In this document: piece after piece, positions 912-7,735 of the stretch | How positions within the stretch are numbered: position 1 is the first letter of the stretch | Layout of the letters: every line of letters begins with the position of its first letter | Assembly (NCBI GenBank): GCA_029248525.1 | Contig: JAQWJE010000039.1 | Location: forward strand, 124,001 to 188,000 | Direction: 5' to 3' | Length of the DNA stretch: 64,000 nucleotides | Origin: Candidatus Binatia bacterium | Lineage (GTDB): Bacteria; Desulfobacterota; Binatia; UBA12015 | Position numbers and translations under genes: made by a program | Notes under the pieces: generated by a model | Seen by the model: only the letters and a program-made list of their open reading frames with translations | Databases searched by the model: none | Told to the model about the DNA's origin: nothing

Positions 912-2740
912 GCAAGGCCGCCAATACTTCGCTCGCTGATCAGGGAATTCACGAAGAAGCGAAGGTCCAAAAGGCCTACGACCGGCAGCTTCTCGCCCGG
1001 CTGTGGCCGTTTTTGCGTCCCTATCGTGGGGTGTTCGCATTATCCTTGATCTTGTTGCCGATGATCTCGGCATTGATGCTCCTCCAGCCGTATTTGATCA
1101 AGGTTGCGATCGATGAATACGTATCCAAGGGAGATCCGGACGGACTTGGCCGTATTGGCGGTTATTTCCTCGCGGCGCTGCTCGCCGAGTTCTGTCTTCT
1201 TTATATCCAGTACTACCTGACGATGTGGCTGGCGCAGCATGCATTGGCCGATTTGCGTGCGACCCTGTTTGCTCATCTGGGCCGGCTCCCGCAACGTTAT
1301 TTCGATCGGAATCCAGTGGGCCGGATCGTCACGCGATTGACGACGGATGTGGATGTGCTGAACGAAGCATTTTCGTCCGGCGGTATGACCATCTTCATGG
1401 ACCTGCTGACCTTGGGCGGAATCGTGGGCGTGATGCTCTGGATTGACTGGCGTCTCGCGTTGGTCACCTTTTCGGCCGTTCCCATCCTGCTTTTTTCGAT
1501 TGATTTTTTTCGGCGCAAGGCCCGCGTTACCTACCGACTGATTCGCGAGCGAGTGGCCGGGATCAATAGCGTCTTGCAGGAGTCGATCTCGGGGATGACC
1601 GTGATCCAACTTTTCGCTCATGAAGCTGCGAGCTTTGTCACTTTCGAGCGACAGAATAAATTGCATCGAGACGCCTACCATCGCGCCAACCTCTATGAGG
1701 CGTCTCTCTTTTCGGTGGTCGAGGCGGTGAGTTCCATCTCGGCTGGGCTGGTGATTTGGTACGGGTCCGGGCAGATTCTGGCGGGAGTTGTCGCCTTCGG
1801 TACATTGGTGGCGTTTATCGAGTATCTGCAGAAGTTTTTTGTCCCTATTCGAGATTTTTCGGCAAAATACGCAGTCCTGCAATCGGCGATGTCTGCGGCT
1901 GAAAGGGTCTTTCAATTATTGGACGAGGAGGTCTCGATTGCAGGCGGGCAAGACTCCAGGACCCCCGCACCCGACGCTGTGGCCCGCGGATCGGTCTCCT
2001 TCAAGAATGTGTCTTTCGCCTATCGAGGCCGGGAAAACGTACTCCATGATATCTCGCTCGAGATTCGGCCGGGCGAGACGCTTGCGGTCGTCGGGGCCAG
2101 TGGTTCGGGCAAGACCACGTTGACCAAATTGATTGGTCGGAGTTTCGATGTGAGCGAAGGATCGGTTTGCGTATCCGGCATCGATGTTGCGGATTGGGAT
2201 CTTCATGCTCTGCGTCGCGAGGTGGGAATCGTCCTTCAGGATGCCTTTCTTTTTCGGGGTACGGTTGGGGAAAATGTTTCGCTTGGACGGGCGGATACCT
2301 CCGAGGCCTTGGTCCGCGAAGCAATTGAGGCAGCCAGCCTCACCGAGTTTGTCGCAGGCCTCTCGGGAGGGCTTTCCGAGGAGATCCGCGAGCGCGGAAA
2401 TAATGTCTCCGTGGGACAACGGCAGCTTCTGGCATTCGCACGAGCGCTTGCCTACGACCCCCGGATCCTGATTCTGGATGAGGCCACGTCGAGCGTGGAT
2501 ACCGAGACGGAGAGCCGGGTGCAGCACGCTCTGGATCGATTGTTGGCGGACCGCACCGCAATTGTGATTGCGCACCGACTTTCGACAATCGAAAAAGCCG
2601 ATCGAATCGTCGTGATGCATCACGGCCGGATCCACGAGATTGGCACCCACCGTGAATTACTGGAAGCCGACGATCTTTACGCTCGCCTGCACGCTCTGCA
2701 GTACGTTCGGAGGCAAAACCGGGGCGGTTCGGCGGCATGA
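908..2740 (+). CDS. Heterodimeric ABC exporter, second subunit
   Basis: A full half-transporter of 610 residues starting at GTG 908. An N-terminal membrane domain of about six helices (residues 35-330) is followed by an ATPase domain. Walker A is GASGSGKT at 396-403 and Walker B is LILDE at 521-525 with a normal catalytic Glu, but the signature reads VSVGQ (500-504) instead of LSGGQ. Paired with the preceding subunit, this gives one complete ATP site (this Walker pair plus the partner LSGGQ) and one weak site. MdlB-like by these features. It overlaps the next gene by 4 bases (ATGA), so a lipoprotein is co-translated with the exporter. Confidence 0.93.
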   Translation: MSKAANTSLADQGIHEEAKVQKAYDRQLLARLWPFLRPYRGVFALSLILLPMISALMLLQPYLIKVAIDEYVSKGDPDGLGRIGGYFLAALLAEFCLLYIQYYLTMWLAQHALADLRATLFAHLGRLPQRYFDRNPVGRIVTRLTTDVDVLNEAFSSGGMTIFMDLLTLGGIVGVMLWIDWRLALVTFSAVPILLFSIDFFRRKARVTYRLIRERVAGINSVLQESISGMTVIQLFAHEAASFVTFERQNKLHRDAYHRANLYEASLFSVVEAVSSISAGLVIWYGSGQILAGVVAFGTLVAFIEYLQKFFVPIRDFSAKYAVLQSAMSAAERVFQLLDEEVSIAGGQDSRTPAPDAVARGSVSFKNVSFAYRGRENVLHDISLEIRPGETLAVVGASGSGKTTLTKLIGRSFDVSEGSVCVSGIDVADWDLHALRREVGIVLQDAFLFRGTVGENVSLGRADTSEALVREAIEAASLTEFVAGLSGGLSEEIRERGNNVSVGQRQLLAFARALAYDPRILILDEATSSVDTETESRVQHALDRLLADRTAIVIAHRLSTIEKADRIVVMHHGRIHEIGTHRELLEADDLYARLHALQYVRRQNRGGSAA

Positions 2741-3783
2741 TCTGGCGCCGGTTTATGATCGGTTGTCTGCTGACCGTGACTCTTGTTGGATGCGGGGGTT
2801 GTTCGCCCCTCTATATTCTGGAGGGAGCGGTGGTTCAGGGGCGAATCTTGCTGAGTCGTGAGCCGTTGGTTCGTGTGCTGAACGACCCGACTCTCAAGCC
2901 GACCGCGCGTCTCAAGCTCGAACTCCTGATGGAGGCGCGGACCTTTGCGGCCGAGGCGCTCGATCTCGATGTCGGCGATGCCTACGGCAGTTATGCCGAG
3001 GTTCCCGACGGCGCTCTGGTCTGGGTGGTGTCCGCGGCGCGGCAAACTCGACTGGAGAGTTATTCGTGGTGGTTTCCGATCGTCGGCACGGTCACCTACA
3101 AGGGCTTCTTCGACCGAGGTGATGCGGACGAGCTTGCGGCCTCGTTGCAAGCTGATGGCTGGGATACCTATGTACGGCCATCGGGCGCATTTTCTACTCT
3201 TGGTTGGTTTGATGATCCGGTCTTGTCGAACTGGCTCCGTCGCGACGACGTGGCCTTGGTCGACCTGCTTTTTCACGAGCTGATCCATCGAAGTTTTTAC
3301 AGGGCGGGGTATACCGATTTCAACGAATCCTTTGCGTCCTGGGCGGGGCGCGCGGCGGCCTACGAATTTTTCCTCGAGCGGGAGGGATTGGAGGCAGCCA
3401 ATACGAAACTGGCTCGGGAACGTTTGGAGGCCTCCTTTACCGGCTCTGTACAATGGGGGAAGCGCATCGATGCCTTGCGAGATTTCTACCGGCGAGCGGC
3501 AATGGGGAAATGGCCACTCGAGAGAATTCTGGTGGATCGGCAGGAATTCTTCCGAGCCTTTGGCGATCCGCAGCGAGTGAATAACGCAGTGATTCTTGCC
3601 CGTTGGGCCTATCGCAAGGACCTTGGCGATTTCCGCTGCGCGCGGGAGCATTCGGGGCAGGAACTGGCTGTAGCGATTGCGCAAACCTGGGAGCGTAGCC
3701 TGAGCTCCAAGGACCCTTTTGCGGCGATCGGTTGTCAGGGTGTGTCGGGGCAGGCCGAGGGCGACCCCTCGGGTCGCTCGTAG
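2737..3783 (+). CDS. Lipoprotein zinc aminopeptidase-like protein (COG4324)
   Basis: 348 residues. A lipoprotein signal ends at LVGC (Cys19), so the protein should be anchored in the envelope facing the periplasm. A zinc-protease motif HELIH lies at 180-184, with NESFA (Glu197) just after it as likely third ligand. This layout matches the predicted aminopeptidase family COG4324/PF10023, whose physiological role is not established. The start overlaps the ABC gene by 4 bases. The 3' end overlaps the convergent pentapeptide gene by about 49 bases. Linkage to the exporter hints at an envelope role; that is inference. Confidence 0.8.
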   Translation: MIWRRFMIGCLLTVTLVGCGGCSPLYILEGAVVQGRILLSREPLVRVLNDPTLKPTARLKLELLMEARTFAAEALDLDVGDAYGSYAEVPDGALVWVVSAARQTRLESYSWWFPIVGTVTYKGFFDRGDADELAASLQADGWDTYVRPSGAFSTLGWFDDPVLSNWLRRDDVALVDLLFHELIHRSFYRAGYTDFNESFASWAGRAAAYEFFLEREGLEAANTKLARERLEASFTGSVQWGKRIDALRDFYRRAAMGKWPLERILVDRQEFFRAFGDPQRVNNAVILARWAYRKDLGDFRCAREHSGQELAVAIAQTWERSLSSKDPFAAIGCQGVSGQAEGDPSGRS

Positions 3784-4382
3784 TCGCTCAGGGAGGCCGG
3801 AAATTCGGGTGGGTTTTCGCCGGACCAGCAAGCGCTGGTGAGTTGTGCTGCAGTGAGGCGTTGCTCATGAGCCTGGCCGATCGCATGGGGCCATCCCATG
3901 CGTGCTCCACTCAGATTGGCACCGGTCAGGTCGGTGGCGCGCAGAAAGGTGTGTCGCAGGTCGGCCTCGCGCAGATCAGCGCCCTGAAGGTTGGCCTCCT
4001 CGAGGTTGGCCCCGTTGAGCTTTGTTCCACGGAGGTTGGCTCGTTTTTGCTCGTCGCTGAAATCGGAGCGAGCGAGCTCGGCATTGGTGAGATCTGCGCC
4101 CGGAAGAGCAATGCCCCCGAGGTTTCGACCTTCAAGCTCGATCCCGAGCATGGAAACTTTGCACTCGCCCAATAATTCCAGCTGCGCGACGCTGAGCTGA
4201 GGCTGCCGATCGGCCTCATCGAGGAGGAATCTTGCCTGAACGAGGGCGAGACTATCGCATCCCGGCGCGGCAGCGGCCTCCTTGGCTTTCGGTTCCGACC
4301 CGATCGCCTCGGCCGCATCGGCTTCCCTCGGGACGGGAACTATGAGAGAAAACAGCAGGGATACGCGAATGAAGAGGCTCAT
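3735..4382 (-). CDS. Secreted pentapeptide-repeat protein
   Basis: 215 residues from ATG 4382; a GTG at 4397 would add five residues before what looks like a signal peptide (Arg then a leucine-rich core, ending near ADA). From about residue 75 to 170 the sequence falls into A(D/N)LxxA pentapeptides such as LRGTKLNGANLEEANL, which form a right-handed quadrilateral beta-helix. The cluster of proteins with this fold has no single function. The predicted export argues against a gyrase-protecting Qnr-type role. Its last 49 bases overlap the end of the convergent gene. Confidence 0.8.
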   Translation of the reverse strand: MSLFIRVSLLFSLIVPVPREADAAEAIGSEPKAKEAAAAPGCDSLALVQARFLLDEADRQPQLSVAQLELLGECKVSMLGIELEGRNLGGIALPGADLTNAELARSDFSDEQKRANLRGTKLNGANLEEANLQGADLREADLRHTFLRATDLTGANLSGARMGWPHAIGQAHEQRLTAAQLTSACWSGENPPEFPASLSDYERPEGSPSACPDTP

Positions 4383-4448
4383 GATCTTAGAATCCACGGA
4401 AAGGCTCGCAGCTGCAACCTCGCCACGGAATCCCGGGGCTCGGGTTTC

Positions 4449-4721: not shown

Positions 4722-5152
4722 CGTAGTCCTTCGTAAAGAACGATCGAGACGGCGTTGGCGAGGTTCAGGCTTCGGACGCCGGTCCCCGGCATCGGGATAT
4801 GCCACAGCGGGTCGAGCGATTGTTTGAGCTCGGCTGGTAGGCCGCGCGATTCCGACCCGAAGATGAGGGCGTCGCCCTCGTTGTACCTCGCTTCGGTATA
4901 GCTCCGTTGCGCGTGGGTACTGAATCCAAACAGGGCGGAAGGCTCAACCTCCGCGACGAAGTCAGCGAAGTCGTCGTGCGTATAGAGGTCCACAAACGGC
5001 CAGTAGTCGAGGCCAGCTCTTTTCAAATAGCGGTCCTCAAGGGAGAAGCCCAGTTCACCGACGAGATGCAGGGGGCTTCCGGTCGCGGCAGCCAGGCGAG
5101 CGATGGATCCGGTATTCTGGGGAATCTCGGGCTCGACCAGGACGATATGCAT
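4703..5152 (-). CDS. trmL: tRNA (cytidine/uridine-34 2'-O)-methyltransferase, SPOUT class
   Basis: 149 residues beginning MHIVLVEPEIPQNTG, the usual N-terminus of TrmL/YibK. The trefoil-knot SAM site is seen as LIFGSESRGLP in the middle and IPMPGTGVRSLNLANAVSIVLYE near the end (quoted in two parts: IPMPG and RSLNLANAV). Length is close to the 155-160 of the family. It 2'-O-methylates the wobble base of tRNA-Leu isoacceptors. The start at 5152 is fixed by the TGATG junction with the upstream DUF1285 gene; an in-frame Met 10 codons earlier lies inside that gene. The two form a small operon. Confidence 0.93.
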   Translation of the reverse strand: MHIVLVEPEIPQNTGSIARLAAATGSPLHLVGELGFSLEDRYLKRAGLDYWPFVDLYTHDDFADFVAEVEPSALFGFSTHAQRSYTEARYNEGDALIFGSESRGLPAELKQSLDPLWHIPMPGTGVRSLNLANAVSIVLYEGLRQLAVV

Positions 5153-5622
5153 CAGCTTGCGCCCGCATCCGGAAGGATCCATCGTCGTTGATCCGGGCCG
5201 GGGAGGAAGAACTGACCGTTTTCTTCGATGGCATGCGATAGCAGTTCAATTTGCGGGGCGCGAAGGAAACGTACTCGATGCTGGCCCTGCTTCGCCCGGC
5301 CCGAGAGAACATGCTCTGCCGAGAGGGTGAGGGTCTCGGGGTCGAGCGCCTCCGCGGTACCGTCGTTCAGACCGATGGTGAACCCATGCGGGCCGTTCCC
5401 GTCCACGCGAGCCACAACCCAGGGCGTGTCCTCGATGACGACCTGAGCGCGTTCGTCTCCCATCAGGATCCACCATTGGCCGTCCTCAAGTTGCACCAGA
5501 TGGCGTGAAAAAAGATCCGCTATTCGGGGGTTCTCGATTGGTTCGCTGTCGGAATACCACCGGCCATCCTTGCCGAAGCGAATCTCGCCGCTCTCAATTG
5601 CCCAAAATCCTGCCATTCCCAT
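5152..5622 (-). CDS. DUF1285 family protein
   Basis: 156 residues, soluble, no signal peptide. Features of DUF1285 (COG3816) are seen: WYSDSEPIENPRIADLFSRHL near the start (key part SEPIENPRIADLF) and a middle segment VVIEDTPWVVARV. These proteins have two small beta-rich domains and no assigned biochemical function. It is first in a two-gene operon with trmL (TGATG junction), and is divergent from the lgt-fusion gene across about 87 bases. Confidence 0.75.
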   Translation of the reverse strand: MGMAGFWAIESGEIRFGKDGRWYSDSEPIENPRIADLFSRHLVQLEDGQWWILMGDERAQVVIEDTPWVVARVDGNGPHGFTIGLNDGTAEALDPETLTLSAEHVLSGRAKQGQHRVRFLRAPQIELLSHAIEENGQFFLPGPDQRRWILPDAGAS

Positions 5623-5709: not shown

Positions 5710-6987
5710 ATGGTTCCTGTTCTATTTTCGATTGGTCCGGTCTCGGTCTACAGTTTCGGTTTGATGCTGGCGCTGGCTTTTCTCGGGGCGTCTGCAGTGC
5801 TCGTCCGGAATCTGGAGGCCCGAGGACTCGATGGCGAATGGGCCGGACCCATCACCTGGCGCGCAGTACTCGGCGGCGTGGTCGGAGCACGGCTACTCTC
5901 GGTCGTGAACAACTGGGACCTTTTCCTCGCAGATCCGGTTGGTCAGCTGTTTACGGGCGCCGGCTTCGTTTTTTTCGGAGGACTGGCCGGTGGTCTCATC
6001 GCTGTGTCGGTATGGATCTATCGGCAGGGGCTGTCGTGGATGATGATGGCCGACACGATCGCCCCGTCTGTGGTGCTCGGGCAGGCGGTGGGCCGAATTG
6101 GCTGCCAGCTCGCAGGGGACGGCGATTGGGGCACGGTCACAACGCTGCCCTGGGGCATGGCTTACCCGGACGCGATCTTCGGCTGGACGCACGCCTCGGG
6201 TGTCCTGGTGCATCCGGCTCCCGTTTACGAGAGTCTGATCTACTCGCTGATTTTTGTAGTCCTGATTCGTATGTTGCGCGCACCCGAGCGCTGGCGTGAC
6301 GGGTCGGTGATGTTCACCTTTCTGGCCCTGTCGGGTCTGGCGAGGTTTGTCGTGGAGGACGTTCGTATCGAACCAAGGATCTTTATGGATTTGACGGAAG
6401 CACAGTGGATCGGTCTGCTGATGGTGGTGGTGGGTGCCGTCGGTGTGTATCTCGTTCAGAAATCTTCGCGGGGCCTTGCCGGGATTGGCGGGATCCTTCT
6501 GCTCGTTCTGGCGGGAGCGTGTACCTCGGGACCGCCGACGGCACCGGATTTCCGCGCTCAGACGCTCGAGGGCAAGTCGTTTCGGCTCTCGGCGCAACGC
6601 GGGAAGGTCGTGCTTTTGAATATTTTCACGACTTGGTGTCCGCCGTGCCGGGAGGAAATGCCTTCCATGCAGCGACTGGCGGATCAGCTGGCCGATGAGG
6701 ACTTCATGATCGTTGCGGTGGCCGAGGACGATGCCGGAGCACCCGTCGTCAAGGAGTTCGGAGAGGAACTGGAAATCCGCTTTCCCCTGCTCACGGAATC
6801 GTCGGGTGCTGTCGGTCAGAGTTACAAGATCTCCGGGTATCCCGAGACCTTCGTGATCGACCGGAACGGTCGGCAATTGGCGCGGATTATCGGCCCACTG
6901 GATTGGGACCGTCCAGCGCTCGTCGCCGACCTGAAGCATTTGATTCGAACTGGAGAATGGCGTCGCGGCCCGGATGGTCGGCCCTAA
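5710..6987 (+). CDS. lgt: Prolipoprotein diacylglyceryl transferase fused to TlpA-like thioredoxin
   Basis: One uninterrupted frame of 425 residues. Residues 1-250 are Lgt-like: several membrane helices, the signature region GRIGCQLAGDGDWG (128-141, the GDGDWG variant instead of the Escherichia coli GNFxNGE form), HPAPVYES (168-175) and RFVVEDVR (212-219). Lgt moves diacylglycerol from phosphatidylglycerol to the lipobox Cys. After a basic QKSSR, a second hydrophobic run ends LVLAGAC (Cys271), a lipobox-like site. Residues 277-415 form a TlpA/ResA-type thioredoxin fold with active site WCPPC (309-313) and a cis-Pro region SGYPETFV. SD AGGAAG precedes ATG 5710. Whether Cys271 is lipidated or cleaved is open. 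Confidence 0.88.
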   Translation: MVPVLFSIGPVSVYSFGLMLALAFLGASAVLVRNLEARGLDGEWAGPITWRAVLGGVVGARLLSVVNNWDLFLADPVGQLFTGAGFVFFGGLAGGLIAVSVWIYRQGLSWMMMADTIAPSVVLGQAVGRIGCQLAGDGDWGTVTTLPWGMAYPDAIFGWTHASGVLVHPAPVYESLIYSLIFVVLIRMLRAPERWRDGSVMFTFLALSGLARFVVEDVRIEPRIFMDLTEAQWIGLLMVVVGAVGVYLVQKSSRGLAGIGGILLLVLAGACTSGPPTAPDFRAQTLEGKSFRLSAQRGKVVLLNIFTTWCPPCREEMPSMQRLADQLADEDFMIVAVAEDDAGAPVVKEFGEELEIRFPLLTESSGAVGQSYKISGYPETFVIDRNGRQLARIIGPLDWDRPALVADLKHLIRTGEWRRGPDGRP

Positions 6988-7735
6988 GCAAATTATCCTT
7001 CCGGGGCTTCTCCTACTACTGGTGATCACGCCGGCTATCGGCAAGGTAGGACTGCCACGCGCGGTACAGGTCGAGCTTCGGGTCGTCGCTCGCGAACTGG
7101 CGGTCAGTCGACGAGCTCAACTCCTCGCGAATCGAAATGCTGTAGCGGCACAAGAGGCGGTTCTGGCAGCCACGACCGATGAAGGCGGGCGCGACCTCCC
7201 CGACCTTCGTCGACGTGCCGAGCGTGCCCGAGAGGTCTTCTATTTCTGGCAATCGCGTTGCGTCTCCCTTGAGCAACGCCGCGGCGACCTGCGAGAAAGA
7301 CGTCGTGCGTGGCGTCGCTCGGATGGCGCGATCGCACCGAGGCAAATGCCCGCCGCGGGGGCAGTTGAGGTCCCCTTCCGTTCGGATCGAAGTCGCTCGG
7401 GCTGGGACGGGGGGATCGGAATCCGGGTGGAGGCGGGCGATTGGGTGCGGGCTGCGGCTCCGGGAACCGTCGTCTTTGCCGGAACTTTACCGGCCTATGG
7501 GGGCGTCGTGGTTCTCGATCATGGATTGCGGGTCTTCACAGTCTATGGCGGTCTGGGAGGCGCTGAGGTGGCGCTGGACGCTCCGGTTTCGGTCGGTGCT
7601 CGCCTCGGCCAGGCGGACCTGGAGGGCGGCGGCCTGGTGTACTTTTCGGTTCGACGAGGCCGGGAGGCCCTCGACCCGCAGAGTTGGCATCGGGAGCTGG
7701 AATCAGGAAAATCTCTCGAATCTTCGCAGGAGTAG
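6974..7735 (+). CDS. EnvC-like murein hydrolase activator, degenerate LytM domain
   Basis: 253 residues starting inside the end of the lgt fusion (14-base overlap). A short signal-like N-terminus (to about residue 22) is followed by a charged, probably coiled-coil part (30-118) and a C-terminal LytM/M23-type domain (130-240). The fold markers GTVVFAG and VVVLDHG are present, but the HxH motif (normally YAHL) reads YGGL at 191-194 and the upstream HxGID reads GGIGI, so zinc ligands are lost. That is how EnvC-type proteins, which activate amidases without being peptidases, look. It is followed by a CtpA protease, a pairing common in proteobacteria. Confidence 0.75.
   Translation: MVGPKQIILPGLLLLLVITPAIGKVGLPRAVQVELRVVARELAVSRRAQLLANRNAVAAQEAVLAATTDEGGRDLPDLRRRAERAREVFYFWQSRCVSLEQRRGDLRERRRAWRRSDGAIAPRQMPAAGAVEVPFRSDRSRSGWDGGIGIRVEAGDWVRAAAPGTVVFAGTLPAYGGVVVLDHGLRVFTVYGGLGGAEVALDAPVSVGARLGQADLEGGGLVYFSVRRGREALDPQSWHRELESGKSLESSQE

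Follow-up and report, generated by a model that had tools for sequence, protein, structure and literature searches.

The cytochrome b/c1 precursor FbcH of Bradyrhizobium is a polyprotein that is cut at an internal signal peptide. The gene described here resembles it in that several membrane helices precede an internal signal peptide, here a predicted one, and then a redox domain in the periplasm. It differs in that the predicted signal is of type II, entailing lipidation and cleavage by LspA, and in that the enzyme making the modification would itself form the first part.

Both parts belong to known protein families. The first is a prolipoprotein diacylglyceryl transferase, Lgt (PF01790; E. 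coli structure 5azb), with which it shares the fold, the signature motif and the equivalents of R143, R239, E243 and R246. Unlike the E. coli enzyme, it carries a C-terminal TlpA and is a GDGD-type Lgt, with Cys in place of N146 and Phe or Tyr in place of H103. The second part shares its fold, WCxxC motif and cis-Pro loop with the TlpA/ResA-like thioredoxins (3kcm; ResA, 1st9; TlpA, 1jfu), and pneumococcal Etrx1/2 are examples of such thioredoxins in lipoprotein form. In contrast to all of these, the thioredoxin described here is the C-terminal domain of an Lgt and its predicted signal peptide is internal. Our literature search found no paper combining lgt, tlpA and prolipoprotein diacylglyceryl, and nothing on point for Lgt fusions or internal type II signal peptides; neither the fusion arrangement nor the lgt-tlpA linkage was found in the literature searched.

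The fused gene and its transferase part

We analysed a window of 64,000 nucleotides from contig C39 of a Candidatus Binatia (Binatota) metagenome assembly (G000). The preliminary description of this DNA had proposed that one frame unites an Lgt with a WCPPC thioredoxin. This is borne out by the Pfam domains and by 425 codons that run without a stop from 5710 to 6987 (+). The features of the gene are as follows:

5710..6987, + strand: lgt-tlpA fused gene, 425 aa, single open frame; Pfam LGT and AhpC-TSA/Redoxin
5710..6459, + strand: Lgt part, aa 1-250, seven-helix membrane enzyme; Pfam LGT 3-246, AlphaFold model compared with 5azb
6091..6132, + strand: Lgt signature motif GRIGCQLAGDGDWG, aa 128-141; in the alignment to 5azb, R129 equals E. 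coli R143 and Cys132 takes the place of N146
6343..6366, + strand: RFVVEDVR, aa 212-219; equals the E. coli R239, E243, R246 network
6457..6471, + strand: basic n-region QKSSR, aa 250-254, predicted to be cytoplasmic and to follow helix 7; read from the sequence
6472..6519, + strand: hydrophobic h-region, aa 255-270; modelled helix at 257-269 only
6520..6522, + strand: putative lipobox Cys271; invariant in 17 aligned fusions and in one further fusion (L033)
6541..6984, + strand: TlpA/ResA-like thioredoxin domain, aa 278-425; Pfam, best PDB match 3kcm
6634..6648, + strand: redox motif WCPPC, aa 309-313; read from the sequence, both Cys invariant in the fusion alignment (A1)

Pfam places LGT at residues 3-246 (E 1e-44; 153 bits against a curated cut-off of 24.9), AhpC-TSA at 278-387 (E 9e-26) and Redoxin at 277-403 (E 4e-23), the latter two also well above their cut-offs; within the thioredoxin part, both the WCxxC motif and the cis-Pro loop are present. 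In an AlphaFold model of the fused protein (mean pLDDT 83.7), the N-terminal part matches E. coli Lgt 5azb (TMt 0.73), and the C-terminal part has 3kcm as its best PDB match (TMt 0.93), with ResA and TlpA also matched. An M23-like frame (6974-7735, +) begins 14 nt inside the 3' end of the fused gene, an overlap that suggests translational coupling within one operon. Elsewhere in the window, a pentapeptide-repeat-like frame (3735-4397, -) adjoins a predicted lipoprotein frame (2737-3783, +) with a HELIH motif.

The catalytic R143 and R239 and the E243/R246 network of E. coli Lgt are kept as R129, R212, E216 and R219. Residues R129, C132, D137 and D139 are invariant in 78 Binatia Lgts; R212, E216 and R219 are likewise invariant in the Binatia enzymes. 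The HGGL motif containing His103 is replaced by FGGL in the window, with Phe89 at the histidine site, and the E. coli Asn146 site is occupied by Cys132. Among the 78 Binatia Lgts, the His103 site is Tyr in 68 and His in three. His103 is essential in E. coli Lgt, where H103Y fails (PMC4728403).

These two replacements, together with the two further Lgt-like proteins that the genome encodes, could be read as signs that the Lgt part is a dedicated scaffold or specialised paralog and no longer a general diacylglyceryl transferase. We consider this highly unlikely, given that the signature motif and the equivalents of R143, R239, E243 and R246 are kept and that it is the two paralogs that diverge (112 and 70 bits against 155). 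Furthermore, a window-type Lgt is the only PF01790 match in the unfused genomes G014, G015 and G016 and in the fused genome G004 (88% complete). The His103 feature is therefore not universal in the Lgt family, and window-type Lgts probably serve general lipoprotein making in these four genomes. Because of the two divergent paralogs, the fused Lgt may not be the sole Lgt of the window genome. The paralogs (G000:C16:87774 and C49:629144; L117, L118) have GCCYG/GCCFG motifs.

Fused and separate genes across Binatia

A sequencing error that removed a stop and a start near the junction had been named as one way in which the fusion could be spurious. Such an artefact is excluded because residues 139-425, which include the junction, are 100% identical in another assembly of this species (G118), and because 11 further genomes of the window's family (f1) share the full fusion at 54-58% identity. 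From another f1 genome (G012) only a fragment was recovered. The search for the same fusion in related genomes also succeeded outside f1, in G017 (f6), in G047 and G021 (f4) and in G034, G027 and G117 (f10; the G117 match is partial). The fusion is thus kept in 12 species of family f1 and in three other lineages. A TGA that seemed to lie inside the f10 fusions proved to be their natural stop after a GG C-terminus, which the alignment had overrun. No fusion outside Binatia was seen among the best 80 loci of a genome scan with two Lgt patterns. One Binatia genome (L038, CAMBZJ010000006.1) bears the public title Klebsiella pneumoniae and is apparently mislabelled.

In the genomes with separate genes that we examined, tlpA lies directly 3' of lgt in all sampled families except f2. 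The preliminary description had suggested looking for a separate tlpA beside lgt; most other Binatia have one directly downstream, usually with a 4-nt overlap between its start and the end of lgt. Close relatives with separate, overlapping genes had also been named as evidence that would refute the fusion. Such relatives do occur in sister families, but they do not refute it, since some lineages have the fused form and others the separate one.

We then followed the fused or separate state on two trees, one of Lgt (78 rows from Binatia) and a joint one of Lgt and thioredoxin (68 rows). The state changes at least four times on the Lgt tree, and likewise four times on the joint tree; G017 nests in f6, and G047 and G021 nest in f4, in each case amid separate genes. 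The trees alone cannot separate gain from loss. Repeated fusion appears the simpler reading because across the class the two genes are generally separate and adjacent.

The separate TlpA is a predicted lipobox protein in f6, f4 and f14. In f3, f5, f7, f8, f9, f11, f13 and f15 it is signal-anchored and has no lipobox Cys. Cys-bearing clades make up ~33% of the joint tree length, and the chance that four independent fusions would all fall there is P ~0.01, or ~0.04 when only the f6, f4 and f10 fusions are counted; the test is a weak one. Neighbouring genes are conserved as well in f1, f5, f6, f8 and f9, with trmL and the gene at 5152-5622 upstream and ctpA downstream, so part of the lgt-tlpA linkage could be inertia. 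Within the short flanks covered, the upstream neighbours were not found beside lgt-tlpA in f4, f10, f11, f14 and f15.

The junction and its predicted processing

The hydrophobic run between the two domains ends in ...ILLLVLAGAC at Cys271. Together with the basic n-region, this gives the window protein the features of a type II signal peptide, including a small residue at -1. Nearly all fusions carry basic residues at the n-region position. The junction had been described as lipobox-like, and this holds in part: A-G-A-C matches PROSITE PS00013, as do most of the 18 fusions, whereas the strict lipobox [LVI][ASTVI][GAS]C is matched by few of them and is relaxed at -3 and -2 in the window. Another predicted lipoprotein of the same genome ends in ...AILAGAC, with an identical LAGAC lipobox, and three have Pro at -2. 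Relaxed lipoboxes therefore appear normal in this genome.

Across all 17 aligned fusions Cys271 is invariant and the residue at -1 is only Gly or Ala; L033 agrees. The surrounding junction is variable. Within f1, its 35 columns (243-277) average 4.3 changes per column on the tree, against 1.85 for columns 1-242 and 1.70 for the thioredoxin. Cys271 shows no change, and position 270 (-1) shows one, in the window itself, where Ala replaces Gly. For one preselected invariant column in f1 alone the Poisson P is ~0.014. Because this statistic is modest, the case for Cys271 rests on a combination: the right residue beside the right neighbour, in four lineages, and absent from the signal-anchored TlpAs. 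Since these separate Binatia TlpAs lack such a Cys, it is not a requirement of the fold. Taken together, sequence conservation indicates that an internal lipobox is under selection in a conserved, repeatedly evolved fusion.

We therefore propose, as the probable reading, that the gene encodes a polyprotein of Lgt, an internal type II signal peptide and TlpA, with predicted lipidation of Cys271 and cleavage by LspA. The two parts would be translated as one chain, the shared frame being the part that is shown. Lgt has seven helices and a cytoplasmic C-terminus (PMC8048626), so a thioredoxin attached directly to it would be cytoplasmic; the basic and hydrophobic junction must therefore turn the thioredoxin to the periplasm, re-entering the membrane in the manner of a type II signal peptide. 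Lgt would then diacylglycerylate Cys271, as its conservation suggests, and the Lgt acting could be the very one attached. In E. coli Lgt, a side cleft between TM3 and TM7 has been proposed for lipobox entry (PMC4728403). In the AlphaFold model helix 7 spans 230-250 and the next helix 257-269. Lipidation in cis is plausible on this model because the segment starts some six residues from helix 7, a wall of the proposed cleft.

LspA would next cut on the N-terminal side of Cys271. Lgt would keep a short eighth helix, and TlpA would be set free as a periplasmic reductase held by its lipid anchor, with the genome's DsbD to recharge it. LspA is present in the window genome. So is a DsbD of 615 aa, found in the search for CcdA or DsbD, as a reductant supply for the thioredoxin, and three Lnt homologs score over the cut-off (G000:C49:313702, C40:56149, C35:122529). 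More tentatively, from gene linkage alone, the freed TlpA may serve Lgt by keeping lipobox cysteines or Lgt Cys132 reduced. Three AhpC-TSA/TlpA-like frames of the genome (G000:C42:19700, C53:32073, C53:47416) have one in-frame TGA each and are possible selenoproteins.

The main rival to the polyprotein is a permanent eighth helix, that is, an uncut transmembrane anchor holding the thioredoxin as a fixed periplasmic arm, with Cys271 either a relic or lipidated but uncut. Its topology is identical to that of the polyprotein, the majority of separate TlpAs in Binatia have a signal anchor and presumably function uncut, and the window lipobox is relaxed. Nevertheless, Cys271 and the small residue at -1 never drift in any fusion while the anchor around them is hypervariable, the modelled helix has only 13 residues (model confidence is low there), and the f6, f4 and f10 fusions sit among relatives with a separate lipobox TlpA. 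We regard the uncut anchor as a lesser, though real, possibility. Both models had been offered in the preliminary description; the invariance of Cys271 favours the polyprotein, short of proof.

TlpA might also be made separately from an in-frame start within the lgt part, the fusion then being a by-product. An in-frame GTG lies 25 codons before Cys271 and would give a perfect signal peptide, and separate relatives overlap by 4 nt. This explanation is very improbable, however: no such start is conserved (the 45 codons ahead of the Cys hold none in L004 and only one each in L002 and L003) and no convincing ribosome-binding site precedes the window GTG.

A proposed lgt-tlpA partnership in two groups

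The pairing of the two genes recurs beyond Binatia. Of the 38 genomes sampled from the class to which a Bdellovibrionales MAG (G148) belongs, 20 (L075, L103, L193-L210) carry a tlpA close upstream of lgt, the reverse of the order in Binatia. Several of these tlpA genes overlap lgt by 4 nt and one lies ~475 nt away; no fusion was seen in the 38 genomes. In 19 of the 20 upstream TlpAs the hydrophobic run ends in a lipobox Cys. The signature GRxGC..GDGDYG is present in all 20 linked Lgts and in 5 of 10 unlinked ones. The linkage in this second group points to a working Lgt-TlpA pair, independently of Binatia.

Lipobox thiols or Lgt Cys132 are reasonable candidates for the redox target. Cys132 is not a sufficient reason for the linkage, since five unlinked Lgts of the second group and those of Binatia f2, which have no adjacent tlpA, also carry it; the residue is only compatible with it. 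The proposed connection between lipoprotein maturation and redox control gains support from the linkage across most Binatia and, in reversed order, in the second group, and it is from this linkage that we infer it. As a tentative overall scheme, one that we hold as possible, a GDGD-type Lgt would work with a dedicated lipoprotein thioredoxin that reduces lipobox thiols or Cys132. In four Binatia lineages the two would form one polyprotein: Lgt would lipidate the thioredoxin attached to its C-terminus in cis, and LspA would then release it.

If processed as proposed, the fused protein would be a lipid-modifying enzyme bearing its own substrate and a natural tethered pair for Lgt-lipobox recognition. 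The acceptor peptide is absent from the Lgt crystal structures (PMC4728403). We found no paper describing a dependence of the first lipoprotein step on thiol reduction; the linkage of lgt and tlpA, in opposite orders in two groups, suggests that in some bacteria this step does depend on it.
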